A DNA stretch of 64,000 nucleotides from positions 1 to 64,000 of the forward strand of contig CANQLV010000005.1 in assembly GCA_947624785.1 (NCBI GenBank). The letters run 5' to 3'. Position 1 is the stretch's first letter. The number at the start of each line of letters is the position of its first letter. Below are positions 2,361 through 49,868 of the stretch, piece by piece. Origin of the DNA: Akkermansia muciniphila (GTDB lineage: Bacteria; Verrucomicrobiota; Verrucomicrobiia; Verrucomicrobiales; Akkermansiaceae). The position numbers and the translations under genes are program-made. The notes beneath the pieces were generated by a model. That model was given only the letters and a program-made list of their open reading frames with translations. It was not told where the DNA came from and made no database searches.

Positions 2361-2706
2361 AACATTTTTACTGAAAATTATTAAAATAAGAGACTCAAAG
2401 CTGCTGCCAATAGATTGTCCGGCATGTCGTATCAACATACAAAATAGTTCTTTCCGGGCAAGAAAAATAGTTCTCGTTTTGCAAGTAAAAACGTATCTCA
2501 AAAAAGAAAAGACCAAACGTGTTTTTGCGTTCACTCTCATTTAGTTTTATATTCAATTAAAAATAAACGGATTCTAAATCCGCTGCATGATTTTCTTTTT
2601 CTCAAAAAGCCAGGTTAAGAAATTGTCACAAACCCGTAGTAGACCCGGAGCTTCATTTTTGGGATACCATGCGGTCAACGGCGCAGAACGCGCCATTTGA
2701 CCGAAC
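2361..2706. other. Divergent intergenic region, AT-rich
   Basis: About 345 bases lie between the divergent Verru_Chthon gene and pstB. The part near 2370-2600 is clearly more AT-rich than its surroundings and must hold both promoters. TGTCACA near 2625 resembles half of a Pho box, but no second half is convincing. I see no gene here. Confidence 0.5.
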
Positions 2707-3489
2707 ATGACTCCGCATCCAGCCGCCGCCGACCAGACCGCCGTAGAGGTGGATTCCCTGGATTTTTGTTATGGAAGCAAGCAATCCCTGTTCCATGTCA
2801 CCATGAAGGTTCCCAGGAACCGGGTGACGGCGTTCATCGGCCCTTCCGGGTGCGGAAAGTCCACGCTGCTGCGCTGCATCAACCGGATGAATGACCGCAT
2901 TCCGGAAGCCCGCGTCACGGGCGGCTCCATCCGCATTGACGGGGTGGACGTGACTTCCCCGTCTCTGGACCCCATCCATTTGCGCCGGGAGGTGGGAATG
3001 GTTTTCCAGAAGTCCAACCCCTTTCCGATGACCATTTATGAGAACGTTTCCTACGGGTTGAAGCTGGCGGGGATAAGGAACCGCGGCATTCTGGATGAAG
3101 CGGTGGAGGAAAGCCTGAGGCATGCCGCCTTATGGGATGAAGTGAAGGACCGTCTCCATGCTTCCGCCAACGGCCTTTCCGGGGGCCAGCAGCAGCGCCT
3201 GTGCATTGCCCGTTCCATTGCCGTGAAGCCTCGCATCCTGCTGATGGACGAACCCTGTTCCGCCCTGGACCCCATCGCCACGGTGCGGGTGGAAGAGCTG
3301 ATGCACCGGCTCAAGGAGGAGTTCACCATCATCGTGGTCACCCACAACATGCAGCAGGCCACCCGCGTTTCCGACCTGACCGGTTTTTTCATGCTGGGAA
3401 GGCTGGTGGAGTTTGATTCCACGGAGAAGATTTTTTCCAATCCTTCCATGAAAGAAACGGAGGATTATATCACGGGAAGATTCAGTTAA
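2707..3489 (+). CDS. pstB: Phosphate ABC transporter ATP-binding protein PstB
   Basis: This is the ATPase that powers high-affinity phosphate import by the PstSCAB complex at the inner membrane. The 260-residue length is typical. It shows Walker [10 protein letters not shown] near residue 45, the PstB-type Q-loop [16 protein letters not shown], signature LSGGQQQR and Walker [14 protein letters not shown]. pstS, pstC and pstA are not in this window; upstream lies an unrelated divergent gene. phoU follows 182 bases later on the same strand, the usual pairing. The start at 2707 lacks a clear ribosome-binding site but leaves a normal N-terminus. Confidence 0.95.
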
Positions 3490-3671
3490 CAGAGAGTTGT
3501 TTATGGTTTTTTCAAAGTTTACTTCCAGAAGGGGCGGCGGCCATTTTTCCTTCTCCGGCGTTGCGCGGAAGCTGGCCGCATCCTCCGTCAAAAGAAGCAG
3601 CCTGCGCCGCCAGCACATTTTTTACCATGCCAGCAAAAGCGCCGCCAGTCATCAAGCCAATATTTCTAATC

Positions 3672-4319
3672 ATGAATCACGACGCGCACACCCTGAGGGA
3701 GTTTGACGCCGCCCTTTCCTCCCTGAATACGCATTTGCTCCAGATGGCCTACAAGGCGCAGAGCGCCCTTGACCTGGCTGCCGCCGGGCTGCTGCAGCAG
3801 AATGAATCCGCCTCCAACCAGGCCATTGCGGATGACGAGGAGCTGGACGAGCTGGAAATGACGGTGGACCGGGAAGGCCTGCATTTGCTGGCTTTTTTCA
3901 GTCCCGTAGCCTCCGATCTCAAGGTGGTGCTGGCGTCCATACGCATGTCTTCCATGTATGAACGGATCGGGGATGAGGCCGTGACGATCGCCAAGAGGGC
4001 CAACAAGCTCAGCAAGCGCCCCCGCATCCGGGAGGCTGCCCAGGCGGACCCCGTTTACCGGGAGATGGCGGAGCAGTTCAGGGCGGTGAACAAGGCCGTT
4101 TCCTCCTGGGACGGGAAGGCTCTGGCAGAGCTGGTTCCCGCGCTGGAGGCGCTGGCGGAGCATGCGGCGGCTCTGACGGATACGTTCACCCGCCTGCCGG
4201 AACAGTATCAGGATAATCTGATTTCCGTGGCGGACCTGATTTTTGTGGGCCGTTCCATGGAACGCATGGCGGAAGGCCTGCAAAAGGTGGTGGCGGAAGC
4301 CCTTTACGCGGCATCTTGA
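3672..4319 (+). CDS. phoU: Phosphate signalling regulator PhoU
   Basis: A 215-residue all-helical protein with two PhoU repeats; conserved features include ERIGDEAVTIAKRANKL in the first repeat and GRSMERMAEGLQ near the end. PhoU restrains Pst transport and links it to the phosphate-sensing histidine kinase. The frame stays open upstream to 3561, but that extension is Pro- and Arg-rich low-complexity sequence with no family similarity. ATG 3672 (MNHDAHTLREFDAAL) gives the family's normal length. It lies downstream of pstB and is probably co-regulated by phosphate. Confidence 0.92.
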   Translation: MNHDAHTLREFDAALSSLNTHLLQMAYKAQSALDLAAAGLLQQNESASNQAIADDEELDELEMTVDREGLHLLAFFSPVASDLKVVLASIRMSSMYERIGDEAVTIAKRANKLSKRPRIREAAQADPVYREMAEQFRAVNKAVSSWDGKALAELVPALEALAEHAAALTDTFTRLPEQYQDNLISVADLIFVGRSMERMAEGLQKVVAEALYAAS

Positions 4320-6516: not shown

Positions 6517-9036
6517 ATGAGTTCAGCCAAGGAACCTGTGACGCGCCGTTTCGGAAACGGTTTGACGGTTTTGATCAAGGAGGACAAGTCCCATCCCGTA
6601 GTGTCCCTTCAGTACTGGGTGGGCACCGGGTCCATGAATGAGGGCCACTGGCAGGGGAGCGGCCTTTCCCATTTGCTGGAACACCTGGTGTTCAAGGGAA
6701 CGGAGCACTATTCCGGGCAGGACCTGGCCCGCAAGGTCCAGGAACGCGGCGGCCACTGGAATGCCTATACCAGCGTGAACCGCACCGTGTATTATATAGA
6801 CGGCCCTGCGGATTCCTGGCAGATTTTCCTGAACCTTCTGACAGAGCTGGTGTTTTTCCCCACGTTCCCGGAGGATGAACTGGAGCGGGAGAAGGGGGTG
6901 GTGCGCCGGGAGATGGCCATGTACGCGGACGATCCCGATTCCGTAGCCTACCAGCTTCTGATGCAGACATTGTACCTCAAGCATCCGCGCCGCTGGCCCG
7001 TGCTGGGGGAACCCGCCGCGTTTGACTGCCTGACGCGCCAGGACGTGCTGGATTACCATGCCAGCCGCTATGTTCCGAACAACGTGGTGCTTTCCATCGC
7101 AGGGGATGTGGATGCCGCGGAGATTTTTTTCCATCTGGAATTGCTGGTGGAGGATTTGAAGTCCCGCCCGCTGAACCGGGAGCTTATTCCCCATGAACCG
7201 CACCAGTTCGGTTCCCGCAGGGTGCGCAAGGAATTTGCCGTGCCCTATTCCAAACTGAACCTTGCCTGGCGGCTGCCCTGTTCCGGCCATCCGGATACGC
7301 CGGCCCTTTCCGCCCTGGCCAGCATCCTGGGCGGGGGCCGTTCCGCGCGTTTTTATGAAAAGTTCCACGACCGCCTGGGCCTGGTGTACAGCATTGAGGT
7401 GCATTCCAACCAGTCCGAGACGGACGAAGGGGCGTTCACCATCAGCATTGACGTGGACCGCGCCCAGCGTGACAAGGTGCGGGACCTGGTGCTCCAGGAA
7501 CTCCGGAATCTGGCACAGGAGGATTTTACGGAGGATTTGAAGAGAGTTTGCAAGCAGACGCGGGTCAGCCGCCTGCGCCGCAGGAGTTCCGCCGCCGGGG
7601 TGGCCTCGGAAATGGGGGCGGACTGGTTCGGCGCCCGCAATTTGAACCTCTCTTCCGAATGGCAGGAAGCTATTGAACGGGTGACCACGGAAGACCTGCA
7701 CCGCGTGTGCTCCACCTGGCTGTCCTCCCCGAATGTGACGGAAGTCAGCCTGGATCCCGTGGGCAGCAACGCCGCGGAGGAAGGCGGCTCCGCCGCCGGA
7801 ACGGAAACGGCTCTGAGCGAGCATGTGCTTGGCAACGGAATGAAGGTAGTGATCCGTGAGGACCACCGCCTTCCGCTGGCCTATGCCTGCCTGGCCTTCA
7901 AGGCCGGCTGCCGGGCGGAGAATGAACATAACGCCGGAGTGACGGATTTGATGTCAGAATGCCTGCTGAAAGGGACCGCCACGCGTTCCGCAGGGGACAT
8001 AGCACGTTTTCTGGAGGACATCGGAGGGGCTATCAATACGTCCACAGGCAATAATTCCCTGAGCGTGGGATGCCAGATTCTGGCGGAAGACCTGGACGCC
8101 GGGCTGGAGCTGATGGCGGATGTGGTGATGAATCCCTCCTTCCCGGAGGACGCGTTCCTCCGGGAGAAGGAGTCCTTTGTGGCGGATGCGGAGGAGGATT
8201 TGGAAGATCCTCTTTCCGTGGCGTTCCGGCAGGAGAGGAAGGTGGCTTACGGCCATGTTTCCTACGGAAATTCCCCGTCCGGCACGCCGGAGAGCCTTTC
8301 TTCTCTGACGGTGCGGGACGTGAAGGAACAGTATGAGCGCATCATCTGCGCCTCCAATGCCGTGATATGCATTTCCGGAGATGTCAGGAAGGAGGAGGTC
8401 CTTCCTCTTCTGGAAAGGCGCCTCGGCGGAATGAGGGTCGGAACGCCGCCGGTCCTGACTCCCACGCCCGCGTTGCGCCCTGGCCGGGAAGTGTCCGTGC
8501 TGGACAAGCAGCAGGCCGTGCTGGTGGTGGGGATGCCGTGCGTGGACGTGGTTTCCCCGGAGATGGCGCAGGCGCTGCTGTTCCAGGCCTGGTGCAGCGA
8601 TATGGCCGGTCCCGTTTTCACCAACATCCGGGAGGAAGCCGGGCTGGCCTATTATGCCAGCTCCTCCCTGTTCATCGGCATGGACGCCGGGGGCATCTGC
8701 TTCTACCTGGGCACCTCCCCGGAACAACTGGAGGAAGCCGGGAGGCGGCTGGAAAAGACTCTTGAGATGATTCATGAACGCGGCATGACGGAAGAGGAGC
8801 TGGAACGCACCAAGGCGTCCGCCCTGTCCTCCCGCCTGCTGGCCATGCAGTCCAACGGAGCCCTGTGCCAGATGCTGGCTCTGGATATCCTGTTCGGGCT
8901 GCCCCTGGATGCGTTTGAACGGCAGACGGTCGCCATCAGGAATATGGAGCTGGACCAGGTGAACGCCTTTATCAAGAAGGTGCTGGACCCCGCGCAGCCG
9001 CGTTCCTGGTCCATCGTGCGTCCGCCCCTTTCCTGA
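6517..9036 (+). CDS. M16 family zinc metallopeptidase, two-unit
   Basis: 839 residues made of two M16 repeats. The N-terminal unit has the inverted zinc motif HLLEH (residues 52-56) with a downstream Glu region EREKGVVRREMAMY, so it should be catalytic. The second unit starts near residue 435; the position matching HxxEH reads DLMSECLLKG, so it is inactive, as usual in fused M16 proteins. There is no signal peptide, so a cytoplasmic or unconventional location is likely. It probably degrades peptides, like pitrilysin or PqqL-type enzymes. It is a stand-alone gene; a hairpin at 9156-9177 may end its transcript. Confidence 0.92.
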   Translation: MSSAKEPVTRRFGNGLTVLIKEDKSHPVVSLQYWVGTGSMNEGHWQGSGLSHLLEHLVFKGTEHYSGQDLARKVQERGGHWNAYTSVNRTVYYIDGPADSWQIFLNLLTELVFFPTFPEDELEREKGVVRREMAMYADDPDSVAYQLLMQTLYLKHPRRWPVLGEPAAFDCLTRQDVLDYHASRYVPNNVVLSIAGDVDAAEIFFHLELLVEDLKSRPLNRELIPHEPHQFGSRRVRKEFAVPYSKLNLAWRLPCSGHPDTPALSALASILGGGRSARFYEKFHDRLGLVYSIEVHSNQSETDEGAFTISIDVDRAQRDKVRDLVLQELRNLAQEDFTEDLKRVCKQTRVSRLRRRSSAAGVASEMGADWFGARNLNLSSEWQEAIERVTTEDLHRVCSTWLSSPNVTEVSLDPVGSNAAEEGGSAAGTETALSEHVLGNGMKVVIREDHRLPLAYACLAFKAGCRAENEHNAGVTDLMSECLLKGTATRSAGDIARFLEDIGGAINTSTGNNSLSVGCQILAEDLDAGLELMADVVMNPSFPEDAFLREKESFVADAEEDLEDPLSVAFRQERKVAYGHVSYGNSPSGTPESLSSLTVRDVKEQYERIICASNAVICISGDVRKEEVLPLLERRLGGMRVGTPPVLTPTPALRPGREVSVLDKQQAVLVVGMPCVDVVSPEMAQALLFQAWCSDMAGPVFTNIREEAGLAYYASSSLFIGMDAGGICFYLGTSPEQLEEAGRRLEKTLEMIHERGMTEEELERTKASALSSRLLAMQSNGALCQMLALDILFGLPLDAFERQTVAIRNMELDQVNAFIKKVLDPAQPRSWSIVRPPLS

Positions 9037-42309: not shown

Positions 42310-44898
42310 ATGGAACCCGCTTCTTCCCGCCCGGTATTGACGTCTCTGGCGTCCGTTGCGTTCGCCCTGGCCGTTCTGTTCCTGTTCCTGGCGGTGCGCG
42401 GAATTTGGCCGCTTGGCGGCCATTACCTGGAATACATGGATAACGGGCAGATGGTGTATCCCACCTTGAAATATTATGCCTCAGCCCTGGTGACCGGAGC
42501 GTTTGACGGGTCCTTCTTTTACGATGTCAATGGAGGAGCGGGCATCCGCGTGAGCCCCTCCCTGCCGCACCAGCTGCTGGTTCCCTCCGCCTGGATTGCG
42601 GTGGCGATGGGAGACTCCTTCCTGTTGAAGGACATGGTCTGGGTGATGCTGGCGGATGTGGTCTGCATCTGCCTCACGGCTTCCTGGTTCCTGAGACGCG
42701 TCTTTACCTCCCTGCCCGTATGCTGGACCGTGCTGCTGACGGCGGGTTATGCCCTGGGGGGATTTTTTCAGACCAAGTACGGGTTCATGCAGTTCCTGGA
42801 CCACGCCGCCATGTTCCCCCTGTTTGCCCTGGGCCTTTACCGGCTGGTGAACGGAGGGAGGGGGTGGCTGTATGCCGTCGGCCTCTTCCTGCTGGCTACC
42901 TCCATGTACAGCGCTTTCATGGCTGTCGTGACCGGCTGGCTGTTCGCGTGGGCCTTCACGCTTCCCCTGAAAGGGACGGTGGAACGCCGCGTCCGGCTGG
43001 CCCGTGTGTTCTGGTACACGGCGGCGGTGACGCTGGCGACCTGCTATTACTGGCTGCCGATGATGGAGATGAGCCGGGATTCCATGCGTTCCCTGTTCAT
43101 GACACCACCCACCTTTTTTGAACTGTCCTGGCCGTTTGACCCTCCCAAATTCCTGGAACGCCTGTATGCCTGCCTGCCGGGAATGGCGTGCGCCGCTTTG
43201 GCTGCCGTCTATCTGGTTTACGGGAGGAAGGAGGCTCCGCCGGCGAACAGGGGGAGGCGGCTGTTTCTTCTCCTGCTGGCGGCGTCCGTGCTCCCTGCGT
43301 TCATTGAACCCCTTCACCGTGCCGCCCATCTGTGGAGCTACGTGGATTTTCCCGTCCGGTTCGGGTTCATTCCCAATCTGGTGGTGGTTTCGTTCTGCGC
43401 CTGGATACTGTCCGGCGGAAGGCTGCCGGAGCCGGTGGGGCGACGCTGGGGCTGGGGATGGAGCGTTGGCCTTCCCGTAGCGGCGTTTGCCGTCTCCCTG
43501 CTTGTCCTTCACGTGACGGACACGGACCTGGCGGTGCGCCTCCTGCCTCTGCTGTTTTTTGCATGCGCGTGGCTGTGCTGGAGGCATGCGGAAGGCAAAA
43601 GGCTGGTGTGCTCCATAGCCGCCGTGATGCTGCTGGGGCTGCCTGTGGGGGCTGCCGCGTTCTGGAAGCAGGGAGAAGAGGAAAAGGCCGCTGTCCTGGC
43701 CCTGAATGCGGAATGGCTGGCGCGCGGCATGGACGGGTACGCCGGGCTTCTGCGTGTGAAGGACAGGGACCGCCTGCTGGTGGACAACGCGGATTGCCTG
43801 GGGCCTGTCCCGGGCATCGGCAATTTCCGGCATACCACGAGCATCAGCCATTTCCGGTTTTTGAAAAACCTGGGGTACCGGGATGAATTCACGCGCACGT
43901 ACGGTCAGGGGGGCACCCTGTTTTCCGATCTGCTGCTGGGCCATGGCTTTGTGCTGGCGTCCCGACCCATGGAGGGAATGGAGTGTGTGCTTTCCCGGGA
44001 AGGCATGTATTTATACAGGCTTCCGGGCGCCCGCTGGGGGCTGGTAGTCCCCCAGGGCGCTCTGGGGCTGCGTCTGGATGAGAACGCTGATGTGTTCAGC
44101 AATCTTAATGCCCTGCACGCCGCGCTCTGCCCATCGGCGGAAGGCCCCCTTTATGAGGCCTTAACAGTGAGGACGGAGATGAGCGGTCCCTTTTACCGGG
44201 CGGGCATTCCGGAATATCCCGGCGCGGTGTACGGGTTCCCGCAGACGGATACGGCGGAACTCCGTGTCAATGGATGTGCGGTGCCCGTCATGGCGGAGGC
44301 GCAGAAGACCCCCGGCGGGACGTGCCGCACCTATAACGGGGTTTTGGAATTGAAGCGTGCGGCCGTTGCCGGGGAAACCGTGGTGGAGGGGAGGATGCTG
44401 CGGACTGTGGAGACGCCCCTTCTGGCGGCTGCGGCGCGTACGCCGGAGCAGGATGTTCCGGTTCTGGGGAAAGAGCAGGATAAGTACGGGATAGAGGCGA
44501 AAGGAAGCGGCGGCCATGTGGAGGTGGCGCTGACTGCCGGAGAAGGGGAGGCTCTCCTGGTTCCGGTCGTGTATGAGCGGGGATGGAGGGCCCGGCGGAA
44601 CGGGATGGAGGCGTCTGTGGAAAAGGTGGGGGAATTGATGGCGGTGCGCCTTCTGGAAGGGCAAAACCGGGTGGTGTTTGATTATTATCCGCCTTTACTG
44701 AAAGGTTCCCTGCTGTTTTCCTCTGGAGCGGCCGCCATCTTCCTGCTGTATGCATGGTGGGCGCGGCGGCATCCGGAATCCACGCTCAGGAGGATTGTTC
44801 TGGCCTGCGGATACAGGCTGTTTCAGTGCTGCGCCGCCGTGGTGTTGGCGGCTGTTTATATGGGGTCAATCGTGTTGTTTATTATACAATCGATGTAA
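42310..44898 (+). CDS. YfhO-like polytopic membrane protein
   Basis: 862 residues with at least a dozen membrane helices in the first half, a large soluble domain (about residues 455-775), and two C-terminal helices (LLFSSGAAAIFLLYAWWARR; CAAVVLAAVYMGSIVLFII). The N-terminal loop YMDNGQMVYPTLKYYASALVTGAFDGSFFYDV is characteristic of YfhO (GT-C-like) proteins, implicated in lipid-linked sugar transfer. Its last 84 codons are repeated nearly identically at 49598-49868; the final few codons here (IIQSM) differ from the copy (IVQSVL), so an AT-rich island was inserted at this 3' end. Confidence 0.85.
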   Translation: MEPASSRPVLTSLASVAFALAVLFLFLAVRGIWPLGGHYLEYMDNGQMVYPTLKYYASALVTGAFDGSFFYDVNGGAGIRVSPSLPHQLLVPSAWIAVAMGDSFLLKDMVWVMLADVVCICLTASWFLRRVFTSLPVCWTVLLTAGYALGGFFQTKYGFMQFLDHAAMFPLFALGLYRLVNGGRGWLYAVGLFLLATSMYSAFMAVVTGWLFAWAFTLPLKGTVERRVRLARVFWYTAAVTLATCYYWLPMMEMSRDSMRSLFMTPPTFFELSWPFDPPKFLERLYACLPGMACAALAAVYLVYGRKEAPPANRGRRLFLLLLAASVLPAFIEPLHRAAHLWSYVDFPVRFGFIPNLVVVSFCAWILSGGRLPEPVGRRWGWGWSVGLPVAAFAVSLLVLHVTDTDLAVRLLPLLFFACAWLCWRHAEGKRLVCSIAAVMLLGLPVGAAAFWKQGEEEKAAVLALNAEWLARGMDGYAGLLRVKDRDRLLVDNADCLGPVPGIGNFRHTTSISHFRFLKNLGYRDEFTRTYGQGGTLFSDLLLGHGFVLASRPMEGMECVLSREGMYLYRLPGARWGLVVPQGALGLRLDENADVFSNLNALHAALCPSAEGPLYEALTVRTEMSGPFYRAGIPEYPGAVYGFPQTDTAELRVNGCAVPVMAEAQKTPGGTCRTYNGVLELKRAAVAGETVVEGRMLRTVETPLLAAAARTPEQDVPVLGKEQDKYGIEAKGSGGHVEVALTAGEGEALLVPVVYERGWRARRNGMEASVEKVGELMAVRLLEGQNRVVFDYYPPLLKGSLLFSSGAAAIFLLYAWWARRHPESTLRRIVLACGYRLFQCCAAVVLAAVYMGSIVLFIIQSM
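44631..44882 (+). repeat. Left direct repeat: 3' part of the YfhO-like gene
   Basis: Matches 49598-49849 without gaps (constant offset 4967) with about six mismatches in 252 bases by eye. Weaker similarity begins near 44612. The repeats bracket the AT-rich RiPP island. Confidence 0.92.
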
Positions 44899-45281: not shown

Positions 45282-45854
45282 TTATGAATTGATGTAGCAT
45301 GGTGAAAAATCTGAAATATCAGCACAAATATCCGTAGATATATTTTGTTTAATGGATTCGATTCCTGAAAAGGCGATTGTGTGATTAAACCAAGATTCTA
45401 GCGTGCTCGTTTCTATATGAGTTCGTTCGTGATAAAAATTGAGCATGGATTTTGTATCGGAACGAATGAGCGTTATATTTTCCTGTAACTGATTCTGAGT
45501 TAAATGATCATTTAATGAAATACTTGGAGGGTGCAGGAAAAAGCGTGAGTTGGGGAAACAGCATCGTTTATTTCCTGTTAAATACAGGCAGATTGCACTG
45601 GAATCTACCGTTGCCAGATTATAAGTTTCAATGTAATCAAACAGATTCAGTAAAAGGCGGGATATGGATAAGGCCAAGGGGATGCTGCCCCCCGGTGAAT
45701 TGATGAAAAGGCGTAAGGGGATGTTTCTTTGATAACGATCTTTTTGAATTTCACGGATAAGTTTTTCTATAAGATCGTCGGAGATGCCTCCCATGATTAC
45801 CAGATCAGAATGTTCATTTTGCATGATAATTTGATTCCATGATGTTAAAGGCAT
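45282..45854 (-). CDS. ClpP-fold serine protease-like protein of the RiPP island
   Basis: 190 residues with the ClpP/crotonase fold: INSPGGS (51-57, oxyanion loop), TVDSSAICLYLTG with the nucleophile position Ser85 or Ser86, and PNSRFFLHPPS with His108. At the catalytic Asp position (ERDTERD in ClpP) it reads SWFNHTIAF, so the acid is replaced. The N-terminal axial loops are short. The 3' end lies at the island edge. A start at ATG 45854 overlaps the ABC exporter by 41 bases; ATG 45824 would overlap by 11. With no other protease in the cluster it is the best candidate for leader removal, but it may be inactive or regulatory. Confidence 0.8.
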   Translation of the reverse strand: MPLTSWNQIIMQNEHSDLVIMGGISDDLIEKLIREIQKDRYQRNIPLRLFINSPGGSIPLALSISRLLLNLFDYIETYNLATVDSSAICLYLTGNKRCCFPNSRFFLHPPSISLNDHLTQNQLQENITLIRSDTKSMLNFYHERTHIETSTLESWFNHTIAFSGIESIKQNISTDICADISDFSPCYINS

Positions 45855-47502
45855 AATGTTGTTTTTGTTCGGGAGTGTCGCCCGGAATATATTTCAGTTC
45901 TCCTTTGTGTAGTATCCAGCAATAGTCGGAGTCAGTAAATATTTCCATATCATGAGAAATAGAAATAATGGTACAGTTGCGTTTCAATTCGCGAAGCATT
46001 TGAAAAATAATAGACTTGTTGAAAATATCTAAATTGTTCGTAATTTCATCTACAATCAATAAATCCGGGTTAATGGCAAGAGCTCTGGCGATGCCGATAC
46101 GTTGTATTTCTCCTCCGGACAGGTTTCTTTGTGATATTGTGGCGTCTAATCCGCCAAGACGGTCAAGTAGATGGTCCAAACGACAAAGTCTGATTATTTC
46201 TTCTATTTGTTCCCGTTTAATTTGATGATTGAAAAGAGTGATATTGTCCAAAAAACTGCTTTGAAAAATAGCTGTAGTTTGAGGGACATACCCGGGACGG
46301 GAAAAGTATCGACATATCCTTCCTTCGTCTTCTCGTAATGTTCCCAAGATGATTCGAATCAGTGTGCTCTTACCTTCTCCGTTATTTCCTAGTATGGAGT
46401 GGTATTCCCCCGTATGTATTTTCCAGTTTAGCTTTTTGAGAATGCGAGGGCCATTGCGATAGGTAAATGAAACATTTTGTAGGGATAGGAGCATGGTTCC
46501 TCTTTGTTTTTCTGAAAACAAATATTCTGAATCACTTGTCTTCAAAATATTATGATTAGATAATATCCCGAAAGTTTTTTCTAATGCCCGGGCACTTTCA
46601 GCACCCCTCGTTAAAGTCGGAACAGAGAAAACCATCTGCCCCATCTGCCCGGAAATCTGTCCTACTAACATTGTATAAGCCACGATCGTCCCCACTTCCA
46701 GTATTCCTCTCTGGAACATAATGACTGTCAGAGCTAGACAGCCTATTTGCCCTAATACCATGATTAATCGGATTTGGGTTGTATAAATGGAGGAGCGTTT
46801 ACCTGCCTCAATGGAACATTGTTCAAGATGACGTGTTACTACGGAGAAGCGAAATATTAAATTTTTGGTGACCCGGAAGAGTCTCATGATAGGCGTCAAA
46901 GCGAGAAAATCAATGAATGTAGTTCCTTCTTCGTAATTTGTGGTACGTACATTTTGTGAGCTGAGTATCAGTCGTTTTTTATTTAGATGAAAAATGAATA
47001 AAAAACAAATTGCTATTGCCACAATAAGAATTAAGAATATAGGGTGTTTTTTCACCATCACAAAGCAGACTAGAGCAAAGGTAATGACTGCCCCTGCAAT
47101 TTCTCCAAGAGTAGGACATATGCTTTCTGCAACAATTTGAGTATCCATGCAAATACGTCGTTCCCATGTCCCGACGGCTTCTCTCTCCCTTTGTTCCGTA
47201 TCTAACTGCATGAATCGATTTATGACATCCTCCTTCATTTTTCTAGCCATAGAGGCTGTTTCTTTGATAATACAGTAGTTAAATCGGTATTGGCTGAATA
47301 AAGAAATAATATCCAGAAGAGCGATGACAGATATTCCTCCCCATAGATAATAAGAAGAAATATTTTTACAGCTCAGGAGTGTAATAAGATATCCGAACAA
47401 CAGTGTTGATCCTATAGCTGCCAGTTCCTGAACGATAAGTAAGCATATTCCCCAAAATTTACTTTGAGCGTAATATCGGTAGATGGAGAAAAGTTCACTC
47501 AT
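45814..47502 (-). CDS. ABC exporter (fused permease and ATPase), no peptidase domain
   Basis: 562 residues: six membrane helices in the first 300 residues, then an ATPase with Walker A GNNGEGKST (372-380), signature LSGGE (461-465) and Walker B LLIVDE (481-486). There is no N-terminal C39 peptidase, so the cargo's leader must be removed by another enzyme. It starts 176 bases past the precursor peptide gene, after a strong hairpin, and overlaps the ClpP-like gene. It probably exports the modified peptide. AT-rich codon use sets it apart from the rest of the window. Confidence 0.93.
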   Translation of the reverse strand: MSELFSIYRYYAQSKFWGICLLIVQELAAIGSTLLFGYLITLLSCKNISSYYLWGGISVIALLDIISLFSQYRFNYCIIKETASMARKMKEDVINRFMQLDTEQREREAVGTWERRICMDTQIVAESICPTLGEIAGAVITFALVCFVMVKKHPIFLILIVAIAICFLFIFHLNKKRLILSSQNVRTTNYEEGTTFIDFLALTPIMRLFRVTKNLIFRFSVVTRHLEQCSIEAGKRSSIYTTQIRLIMVLGQIGCLALTVIMFQRGILEVGTIVAYTMLVGQISGQMGQMVFSVPTLTRGAESARALEKTFGILSNHNILKTSDSEYLFSEKQRGTMLLSLQNVSFTYRNGPRILKKLNWKIHTGEYHSILGNNGEGKSTLIRIILGTLREDEGRICRYFSRPGYVPQTTAIFQSSFLDNITLFNHQIKREQIEEIIRLCRLDHLLDRLGGLDATISQRNLSGGEIQRIGIARALAINPDLLIVDEITNNLDIFNKSIIFQMLRELKRNCTIISISHDMEIFTDSDYCWILHKGELKYIPGDTPEQKQHYAFNIMESNYHAK

Positions 47503-47637
47503 GTTGTATTTCTTTGATTGTAAGACTTAAAGTGAGAGAACTCTAGTGTCCTTGCGTTTCGTTTTTAGCGAATTGATAAGATGAGGAAGAGTGTAAAAAA
47601 TCAGCAAATGTGACAATATTCGTTTTCTGTATTTATA

Positions 47638-47669
47638 CTATGCCTCTGTTATTTGTAACAGAGGCATAG
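47638..47669 (-). terminator. Hairpin between precursor peptide and exporter genes
   Basis: A perfect 14-bp stem CTATGCCTCTGTTA/TAACAGAGGCATAG with loop TTTG, 10 bases past the precursor stop. No long T-run follows on the minus strand; instead TATAAATAC follows immediately, which could be a -10 box for the exporter. Such attenuators commonly keep precursor expression above that of the downstream genes. Confidence 0.75.
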
Positions 47670-47678
47670 GCTATTTAT

Positions 47679-47855
47679 TTATCGATTATGTGCCGAATTG
47701 GCACACATGGTGTAGCAAGACCCCATGCATGTTCCAGCACAACTATGACTGCAATTGGTGGACGTTCTGCTAACAGCGTGGATAGATACGTTTTTTTTCT
47801 TATATGAATTAATAATGGCATTAAGCTTTTGGAGCTTTTCGGTTGATATATTCAT
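47679..47855 (-). CDS. RiPP precursor peptide with five Cys at CXXX spacing
   Basis: 58 residues from ATG 47855 to TAA 47679. The leader (residues 1-33) is MNISTEKLQKLNAIINSYKK with a Lys-rich end and VSIHAVSRTST. The core holds CSHSCAGTCMGSCYTMC, five Cys (35, 39, 43, 47, 51) each exactly four residues apart, then ANSAHNR. There is no Gly-Gly cleavage site. This CXXX repeat, next to a radical SAM/SPASM enzyme, marks a sactipeptide- or ranthipeptide-like precursor. NCBI names I recall include radical SAM maturases of a CXXX-repeat target family, which fits but is unchecked. It lies 70 bases after the enzyme's stop; a tandem 14-base repeat (CAACAATAACAAAA) fills the leader region before the ATG. 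Confidence 0.85.
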   Translation of the reverse strand: MNISTEKLQKLNAIINSYKKKNVSIHAVSRTSTNCSHSCAGTCMGSCYTMCANSAHNR

Positions 47856-47882
47856 TTTGTTATTGTTGTTTTGTTATTGTTG
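47855..47882 (-). repeat. Tandem 14-base repeat before the precursor start codon
   Basis: On the minus strand CAACAATAACAAAA occurs twice back to back, the last A being the first base of the ATG. No Shine-Dalgarno sequence is present. An unstructured A/C-rich leader could favour strong initiation. Confidence 0.7.
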
Positions 47883-47925
47883 TTTTTCTTTTCCTATTTT
47901 AAATTAGGAAGAGAAATGGTTTCTT

Positions 47926-49284
47926 CTATTGAGGAAATTCTTTTTGAATATCGATAGATGAAAGGTATCTATAAGCATTTAGTGCATCGTTGAGTACGAA
48001 AATTTCATGGTCGTTTAAAGTTCTGTAATTTATTTCTTTCAGAAAATATTCTAATTGATACTGGCATGCAGCCATGGCCTCCGCAGCATTCATTGCACAC
48101 CAGCGCCGATCGCGTTTATTAATGGAATTTCTATCCAGCATGTTAAAACCAATACAGGTCGGACACCAATTTAGCAGCCCACAGCCTCGACAATCATTAT
48201 CGGTCATTTGTTGTTCATCTTCCCAGCCATTAAAATCCTGATGCTTCATGGCGCGGTTTCCAAGAACCAGAGGAGTAAACATATGGCATCCGTACATGGA
48301 GCCGTCTGTATCATAGGTTGCCATATAAGTGCCACTACCGCAGAATTTGCTTTGCAATATTTTTGGGGACCCAATAAAAGTAAGTGGTCTTGTTAAAAAA
48401 TTACAGGGATGGTGCTCCGGATTTTCTAGGTAATAGTTTTTCAAGAGGCATAATTGTTCATAAAAGATTTTTGCGTCTGCATTATTCCATTCTTCGCCTT
48501 GCGCTAGGCTTGCAATAACTTTGTATCCATTTTTATGTGCAAAAAAAAAGGAATCATAAAGATGATGAAGGCTATTTTTTGATATGGTCATCTTGAAACC
48601 TTGAAACGGCCATGTCTTGCAGAAAAAATCTAAATCTATGTTTTTAGCCTGTTCTCCTCGATTGATATTTTGAGCATTTTCAATGCCATCGTAACTAATC
48701 CCTAAAACCATAGTTTTTCTATGATTTCGGAACCAAGTCTTCATTTCTTCTGAAATAAGGGTTCCATTGGTGGATGCAAAACAAATGAAAGGTATATTAT
48801 GATTACTAGTTTCCATCCATTCTACAATTTCTTTGATGAGGTCGAAGCGCAGCAATGGTTCTCCCCCCATAAAGTCAATTTCCAATTCCTTGAAACGTTT
48901 ATCATTTTTAACAATTTCTATTTCTTCATGGATAATTTTTTTGGCGAGAGATATATCCATTTTTTTTGAGCCATTCTTAAATTTTTCATAACAATAGGTG
49001 CAGTTCAAATTACACCCGTGTGTGATCAGGAGCATACAGGTGCGTCGTTCAAAGTATTCGTGACAAGAAGAGAAAGGGTAGACTGGTTCGGAAGCTGCGA
49101 GATTCATAACCAAACATATAACGGATTCCCAATCCGATATGCCCTGAAAACAGTGCATGAGTTTCTTTTTCTGTAGGGGACGGCCCTGTTTTTCTGCGCT
49201 GTTGAAACGGACATGGCCGGCAGATGTACTGGCTTTCAGGAAAAAGAGTTCTCCGGTTTTCAGATTTATCTTGAGCAGTTTCAA
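47926..49284 (-). CDS. Radical SAM/SPASM peptide maturase
   Basis: 452 residues. The radical SAM cluster motif is CNLNCTYC (Cys91, 95, 98), with GGEP at 140-143. The C-terminal SPASM domain has the seven-Cys order: Cys315, Cys333 (GSMYGC), Cys365/368/374/377 and Cys396, for two auxiliary clusters. The first 80 residues could hold a leader-recognition domain, though no PqqD-like pattern is clear. It should install thioether or similar crosslinks on the adjacent CXXX-repeat peptide. The start is TTG 49284, with an in-frame stop just upstream; the next in-frame ATG is codon 43. It is first in the island operon. Confidence 0.92.
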   Translation of the reverse strand: MKLLKINLKTGELFFLKASTSAGHVRFNSAEKQGRPLQKKKLMHCFQGISDWESVICLVMNLAASEPVYPFSSCHEYFERRTCMLLITHGCNLNCTYCYEKFKNGSKKMDISLAKKIIHEEIEIVKNDKRFKELEIDFMGGEPLLRFDLIKEIVEWMETSNHNIPFICFASTNGTLISEEMKTWFRNHRKTMVLGISYDGIENAQNINRGEQAKNIDLDFFCKTWPFQGFKMTISKNSLHHLYDSFFFAHKNGYKVIASLAQGEEWNNADAKIFYEQLCLLKNYYLENPEHHPCNFLTRPLTFIGSPKILQSKFCGSGTYMATYDTDGSMYGCHMFTPLVLGNRAMKHQDFNGWEDEQQMTDNDCRGCGLLNWCPTCIGFNMLDRNSINKRDRRWCAMNAAEAMAACQYQLEYFLKEINYRTLNDHEIFVLNDALNAYRYLSSIDIQKEFPQ

Positions 49285-49597
49285 AAGCTGGCGGCGGGTT
49301 CAGGATGGGTGGATATTTCTGAAGGTTTTCCGGCTGCAGAAAAAAGTTTTCAATGATGCAACAAAGTTTGTCACAAATTTCTGGTTCTCAAAATTCACAC
49401 TTGACTTTCGGATTGGGAATCCGCTGTTACATCCAAACAGATTTATAGCTAATCTATTATATGGTTGATAAGTACTGTATTTCCTGGTTGGTGAAAATGA
49501 AGAGGAATAGAATGAATTAGATCAAAATTCTCTGTTGCCATAAGAAAAATTGATGATTCTGATGAGTTTTGGGCGGGTGTGTTTGTGGAGAAGGGAA
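49285..49597. other. Upstream region of the RiPP operon
   Basis: About 310 AT-rich bases. It should hold the operon promoter. A palindrome CGGATTGGGAATCCG lies at 49409-49423, and the same 15 bases (opposite orientation) recur inside the radical SAM gene at 49122-49136. No gene is seen. Confidence 0.5.
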
Positions 49598-49868
49598 GGA
49601 ATTGATGGCGGTGCGCCTTCTGAAAGGGCAAAACCGGGTGGTGTTTGATTATTATCCGCCTTTATTGAAAGGTTCCCTGCTGTTTTCCTCCGGAGCGGCC
49701 GCCATCTTCCTGCTGTATGCATGGTGGGCGCGGCGGCATCCGGAATCCACGCTCAGGAGGATTGTTCTGGCCTGTGGATACTGGCTGTTTCAGTGCTGCG
49801 CCGCTGTGGTGTTGGCGGCTGTTTATATGGGGTCAATCGTGTTGTTTATCGTGCAGTCCGTGCTGTGA
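49598..49868 (+). pseudogene. Duplicated C-terminal fragment of the YfhO-like gene (right direct repeat)
   Basis: The fragment keeps the reading frame of the last 84 codons of the gene at 42310-44898 (MAVRLLKGQNRVVFDYYPPL, two membrane helices) and ends in IVQSVL-TGA. About six mismatches in 252 bases separate the copies. What follows is GC-rich chromosomal sequence, so this is probably the original 3' end of the gene, displaced by the island; the left copy then carries a replacement end. Confidence 0.88.

Follow-up and report, generated by a model that had tools for sequence, protein, structure and literature searches.

A probable RiPP maturation cassette of Akkermansia muciniphila pairs a radical SAM/SPASM maturase and a Cys-ladder peptide with an ABC exporter and a ClpP-fold protein

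The 64,000-nt stretch of Akkermansia muciniphila contig CANQLV010000005.1 analysed here (the window) carries a four-gene cassette that is very probably a maturation cassette for a ribosomally synthesized and post-translationally modified peptide (RiPP). The genes encode a radical S-adenosylmethionine (rSAM)/SPASM maturase, a 58-aa precursor peptide with a ladder of Cys residues, an ABC exporter and a ClpP-fold protein. Our overall reading, held with modest confidence, is that of a horizontally acquired RiPP cassette combining a maturase, an exporter and ClpP-like leader removal. A sequence of modification, cutting and export best explains the coupling of the ClpP-fold and exporter genes, the missing C39 peptidase domain and the conserved Ser and His of the ClpP-fold protein. 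In its most specific and more tentative form, the cassette might represent a new leader-processing machine, in which a ClpP-fold peptidase relying on Ser and His, with neither the triad Asp nor AAA+ docking, serves a C39-less exporter and thioether Cys-ladder peptides, shared horizontally by gut Verrucomicrobiota and Bacteroidota.

Organization of the cassette

The genes run downward on the minus strand from 49107. The maturase gene (47926..49107, 393 aa) is followed by the precursor gene (47679..47855), the exporter gene (45814..47502, a fused permease-ATPase of 562 aa) and the ClpP-fold gene (45282..45854), which encodes 190 aa, or 180 aa if the second ATG at 45824 is used, and whose start overlaps the end of the exporter gene. 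A hairpin with a 12-bp stem (47885..47916) lies between the maturase and peptide genes, and one with a 14-bp stem (47638..47669) between the peptide and exporter genes. Both were found by a consensus scan, and any function is putative. A preliminary description had recognized four AT-rich genes on one strand in this region, and this holds in each respect; the GC content of the cassette genes is about 37–39%, against 56% for the window.

Recurrence of the gene set

Whole-genome searches were centred within the phylum of the window, Verrucomicrobiota. The maturase and a ladder peptide are encoded side by side in the window and in L032, L033, L036–L042 and L065. The full set, with exporter and ClpP-fold protein, is found in five loci from three lineages. 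Besides the window these are L032 (Ca. Akkermansia intestinigallinarum; first maturase rSAM1, peptide, second maturase rSAM2, ABC, ClpP), L033 (Akkermansia RGIG199; rSAM1, an 81-aa peptide with a long Cys ladder, ABC, ClpP), L037 (genome G378, from a distant Verrucomicrobiota class; rSAM1, three ladder peptides, rSAM2, ClpP, ABC) and L065 (human-gut contig MT836223.1; rSAM1, peptide, rSAM2, ClpP, ABC, then SusC-like and SusD genes). The ClpP-fold and ABC genes are adjacent in all five, in either order, and overlap in the window, L033 and L037. The window has no counterpart of the second rSAM found in L032, L037 and L065; in the tree these three rSAM2 proteins tentatively form one group (94/94). 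The GenBank record of MT836223.1 comes from human faeces and is filed as 'Bacteriophage sp.'; the SusC-like and SusD genes beside its cassette suggest that it is probably a piece of a Bacteroidota chromosome. No counterpart of its rSAM was found in viral contigs.

This recurrence makes it extremely improbable that the window ClpP-fold gene is a chance neighbour, such as an unrelated ClpP remnant (for instance from a phage head-maturation protease) that happens to lie next to RiPP genes. The weak NCBIfam matches do include a ClpP-related head maturation protease (35 bits, cut-off 120), but members of one ClpP clade adjoin ABC and rSAM genes in five loci and three lineages, where phage genes were not recognised. 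With four further loci carrying the full set, we rejected a chance neighbourhood; the ClpP-like pairing pointed out in the preliminary description is thus a real, recurrent partnership. A phage head-maturation origin was also rejected: on a five-member RiPP profile, ClpP-fold proteins of viral contigs and housekeeping ClpP score about 41–56 bits, against 294 for the window protein (itself a profile member), and no rSAM gene was seen near either. The window protein has no match among 72,556 plasmids, and plasmid carriage was rejected for this reason.

Within the genus Akkermansia, a maturase of the window clade occurs in 4 of 76 genomes (E up to 1e-20): that of the window, G389, G397 and G404. 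The match in G389 has the position of that in L032, while the match in G397 shows 57% identity over the same residues as L033 and probably belongs to the same metagenome-assembled genome (MAG). G404 has two divergent maturases. Within the genus, the full set is seen in the window, L032 and L033. The two G404 genes lie in tandem (L055, 5603-8606) near two near-identical small Cys peptides (SGCIGCCDSYKC ends), among ankyrin-repeat genes. In the class of G378, the maturase is present in 9 of 346 genomes (E up to 1e-70) and the ClpP-like gene in one of the 288 searched, G378 itself. The sole strong match of the ClpP profile in that class is this RiPP-linked protein (E 6e-88, itself a profile member); of the other four matches (E 1e-12 to 1e-15), three are ordinary ClpP and the fourth is a long ClpP-fold protein.

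The ClpP-fold protein and the exporter

Pfam assigns ABC_membrane and ABC_tran to the exporter above cut-off and gives no match to the C39 peptidase there, confirming the earlier view of an ABC exporter lacking C39. No double-Gly leader site was seen. For the ClpP-fold protein, Pfam CLP_protease scores 47.4 bits (cut-off 20.2). Its structural model, built from a four-row alignment, has a mean pLDDT of 82, with two of five models poor, and superimposes on ClpP with a Z score of 21.6 over 173 residues. The proposed ClpP fold is therefore borne out. Streptomyces hawaiiensis ClpP (8xn4) is among the best fold matches; all fold comparisons here rest on the families listed by VIA-align and Foldseek.

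We aligned the proteins of the five loci with the housekeeping ClpP of the same genome and with E. coli ClpP. The nucleophile Ser and the His (Ser85 and His108 in the window) are kept in all five. The position of the triad Asp is occupied by T, P, Q, G and G, whereas the housekeeping ClpP of the same genome keeps Asp. The Ser-His-Asp triad that characterizes ClpP (S14) is thus incomplete in the cassette protein. The N-terminal axial region of ClpP is missing as well, making AAA+ docking unlikely, and the protein is very unlike the genome's own ClpP. Its distant relatives in the other loci are only 23–27% identical to the window protein. The invariance of Ser and His in spite of this low identity argues for retained chemistry.

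The ClpP-fold protein may be a dedicated leader peptidase that works with the exporter, a role we put forward tentatively. The ABC protein, judged by its family, would export the modified peptide. Together with the exporter, the ClpP-fold protein would cut the leader before or during export, a step that a C39 domain takes in other clusters, and cleavage would proceed through Ser and His in the absence of a classical Asp. Of the modify-cleave-export scheme in the preliminary description, the gene set stands; cleavage is conditional, since none of the five ClpP-like proteins has the triad Asp.

Several points weigh against leader removal by this protein and against the reading as a whole. The chief one is that every member has lost the triad Asp, so the ClpP-like protein may not be a protease. 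Six related loci (L036, L038, L039, L040, L041 and L042) have the ladder peptide and maturase without ClpP or ABC genes alongside, so neither is required in every such system. Just five ClpP-bearing loci are known, some from MAGs or an unannotated metagenomic contig. The second rSAM of three of these loci is missing from the window, neither an RRE (RiPP recognition element) nor a recognisable immunity gene was found in the cassette, and there is no experimentally known product. With its maturase lacking an RRE, no immunity gene and no second rSAM, the system is doubtfully 'complete', as it had been called. Among the six loci, the ladder of L038 is short and weak. In L039, a 136-aa precursor (6866-7276) with two Cys-ladder blocks (13 CX3C steps) adjoins the maturase and is followed by a Sel1-repeat protein in place of the exporter.

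The absent Asp and axial region, and the six loci that manage without the gene, would also fit a catalytically weak or dead ClpP-like protein that acts as scaffold or chaperone for the exporter or the maturase, while an ordinary protease, inside or outside the cell, removes the leader. We consider this rather unlikely, as Ser and His are invariant in all five proteins even where identity drops to 23–27%. Self-resistance is a serious but clearly less probable alternative to the leader peptidase: the peptide would attack the housekeeping ClpP and the cassette copy would protect the producer. The precedent is ClpP_ADEP, a homologue of ClpP which confers self-resistance on an acyldepsipeptide (ADEP) producer (PMC12607617), and the fold match with S. 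hawaiiensis ClpP points the same way. The cassette protein, however, lacks the N-terminal axial region and bears little likeness to the genome's own ClpP, its gene is coupled to that of the exporter, and nothing indicates that the peptide acts on ClpP. The leader peptidase is the role that we prefer.

The maturase

The preliminary description had placed the maturase start at 49284. The gene instead begins at 49107, with MNLAASEP, in line with the starts in L032 and L033. Residues 1–59 of the longer 452-aa TTG frame lie mostly in upstream DNA within a stretch of about 310 bp, and we rejected them as part of the maturase (for example as an RRE); with the corrected start, no room is left for an N-terminal RRE. 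No match to an RRE family was found in any of the four cassette proteins with Pfam or NCBIfam. A distant, unrecognised RRE may be encoded elsewhere in the genome.

In the model, residues 1–11 are disordered and the rSAM core begins with strand E21-29. The radical SAM motif C32-x3-C36-x2-C39 and seven SPASM Cys residues (C256, C274, C306, C309, C315, C318 and C337) are invariant in 14 aligned maturases. The window enzyme thus has all ten Cys expected from the CX3CX2C motif and the seven-Cys SPASM domain of the superfamily, as had been described. Profile searches place it among peptide-type SPASM enzymes, with PapB, TIGR04115 and CcpM as the best families. Its score falls short of the cut-off for every NCBIfam family listed (PapB, NF047865, 122.1 bits with a cut-off of 340; TIGR04115, 114.7 bits with a cut-off of 350). 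The best solved relative, by sequence profile and by fold, is CteB (5wgg, 5why). By analogy with the family, the maturase would cleave SAM at one [4Fe-4S] cluster, the SPASM domain holding auxiliary clusters, and would install thioether links from the ladder Cys of the 58-aa precursor.

The precursor peptide and its Cys ladder

The window peptide (MNISTEKLQKLNAIINSYKKKNVSIHAVSRTSTNCSHSCAGTCMGSCYTMCANSAHNR) consists of a leader (about residues 1–34) and a Cys ladder (residues 35–51, CSHSCAGTCMGSCYTMC). Five Cys residues at 35, 39, 43, 47 and 51 have an exact four-residue spacing; at least four CX3C pairs arose in only 29 of 200,000 shuffles of the core. A CXXX-repeat peptide is encoded beside the maturase in the window and in related loci, where leader and ladder are conserved, so the peptide frame is kept in relatives. 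Across 13 precursors, the gap from Cys to Cys is exactly four in 75 of 96 cases. These 75 CX3C units have Gly at position 2 in 41 and Ser or Thr at position 3 in 45. The window ladder is of the CX3C type, with no Asp or Glu at i+4. It matches TIGR04117 weakly (17.5 bits). The supposed newness of the CXXX ladder was not borne out, as NCBIfam already holds the CXXX-target families TIGR04114, TIGR04115 and TIGR04117.

The product is probably thioether-linked. Judged by the family and the repeat grammar, the ladder Cys would most plausibly be linked to Ser/Thr, or else to Gly, within the C-x-G-[S/T] units. The link made by CteB and Tte1186 runs from Cys to Thr (PMC10352776), which makes Ser/Thr of the ladder units plausible acceptors. 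Sactipeptide and ranthipeptide chemistry cannot be told apart from the sequence. It is unlikely that the ladder is free of thioethers, either modified by the maturase in another way or binding a metal or Fe-S cluster as a cofactor- or metal-carrying peptide. Such an outcome would be in keeping with the low scores of the enzyme against all listed NCBIfam families and with a maturase clade that has no known product. SPASM chemistry also extends to C-C, ether and other linkages. The nearest families (PapB, CcpM and the SCIFF maturase) and the fold match CteB are, however, peptide enzymes, of which PapB and CteB form thioethers, and Ser/Thr is enriched inside the CX3C units.

Acquisition of the island

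The cassette was apparently acquired horizontally as an island, judging from a 261-nt duplication, the low GC content and cassette-free sites in relatives. The left direct repeat (44631..44891, plus strand) is the intact 3' end of gene 42310-44898. The right one (49598..49858, plus strand) is a second copy of a gene 3' end and shares 96% identity with the left repeat. The cassette is absent from this site in four other Akkermansia genomes. In G108 the same gene end continues straight into DNA matching the window beyond the right copy, and in G111, G390 and G024 there is a single gene end without the cassette beside it. Both copies are closest to G111 (about 97%), their likeness to G108 being only 84%, yet just upstream, and again further downstream, the closer relative is G108; this pattern suggests a recombination tract. 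This looks like integration through recombination of DNA carrying the 42310-44898 gene end. In L032, a tyrosine-recombinase gene (2689-3762) adjoins the cassette.

The stretch of about 310 bp directly upstream of the maturase (49116..49425), the source of the spurious N-terminal extension, is 86% identical to L043:9577-9886, an unrelated, intergenic place in another Akkermansia (G111). Its copy number was judged by DNA search. A CGGATTgggAATCCG inverted repeat lies near each end, and it is possibly a small mobile or palindromic element.

Relation to earlier work

BAGEL4 predicted a sactipeptide in A. muciniphila (PMC9315967), and sactipeptides are also listed in PMC12105293; no characterised sactipeptide from Akkermansia was found in the literature. 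We found no paper that connects radical SAM RiPPs with CXXX-repeat or ClpP-like proteins, which is weak evidence as most subscription journals are outside the coverage, and Clp is not mentioned in the works examined on such RiPP clusters. CXXX-target SPASM maturases are already known, and it is the ClpP-exporter pairing that appears undescribed. In RiPP pathways, the step that stays unsolved is often the removal of the leader. If our reading is true, a ClpP-fold partner conserved next to the exporter would offer a new answer here and a new handle for genome mining. The cassette would further provide a peptide product from Akkermansia that can be tested, and the long ladder of L033 would yield a strongly cross-linked scaffold.

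Comparison with known systems

The TIGR04115 CXXX-repeat-target family, as in Anaerococcus prevotii pAPRE01 (targets TIGR04114/TIGR04117), likewise combines a SPASM maturase, a CXXX-repeat peptide and an ABC transporter. The pAPRE01 maturase has 728 aa, against 393 aa in the window, and no ClpP neighbour is present in the pAPRE01 stretch shown; the window maturase is far under the family cut-off, and in the tree the pAPRE01 member falls outside the window clade (99/97). On this conjugative plasmid (L064, 44-9203) the maturase lies near a class III lanthipeptide synthetase and its peptide. PapB is the best NCBIfam match, and its system shares the abundance of Cys, every one of them having its partner position four residues further along. 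PapA uses CX3D/CX3E (PMC9413430), whereas the window ladder is CX3C with Gly and Ser/Thr. CteB, the SCIFF maturase, is a thioether-forming SPASM enzyme with about 19% identity to the window enzyme, which starts about 20 residues before the rSAM core and has a long ladder rather than a SCIFF motif as substrate. Thuricin CD (TrnC/TrnD) has Cys four residues apart, as in the window, and its two-rSAM layout resembles L032, L037 and L065. TrnC and TrnD each have an RRE and work jointly (PMC12093266), while the window has one rSAM and no RRE was found there.

With the ClpP/S14 peptidases, the cassette protein shares the fold and the equivalents of Ser97 and His122, but not that of Asp171 or the N-terminal axial region. 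Exporters with a C39 domain (peptidase-containing ABC transporters, PCATs) would couple leader removal with export; the window has a separate ClpP-fold gene in place of C39.

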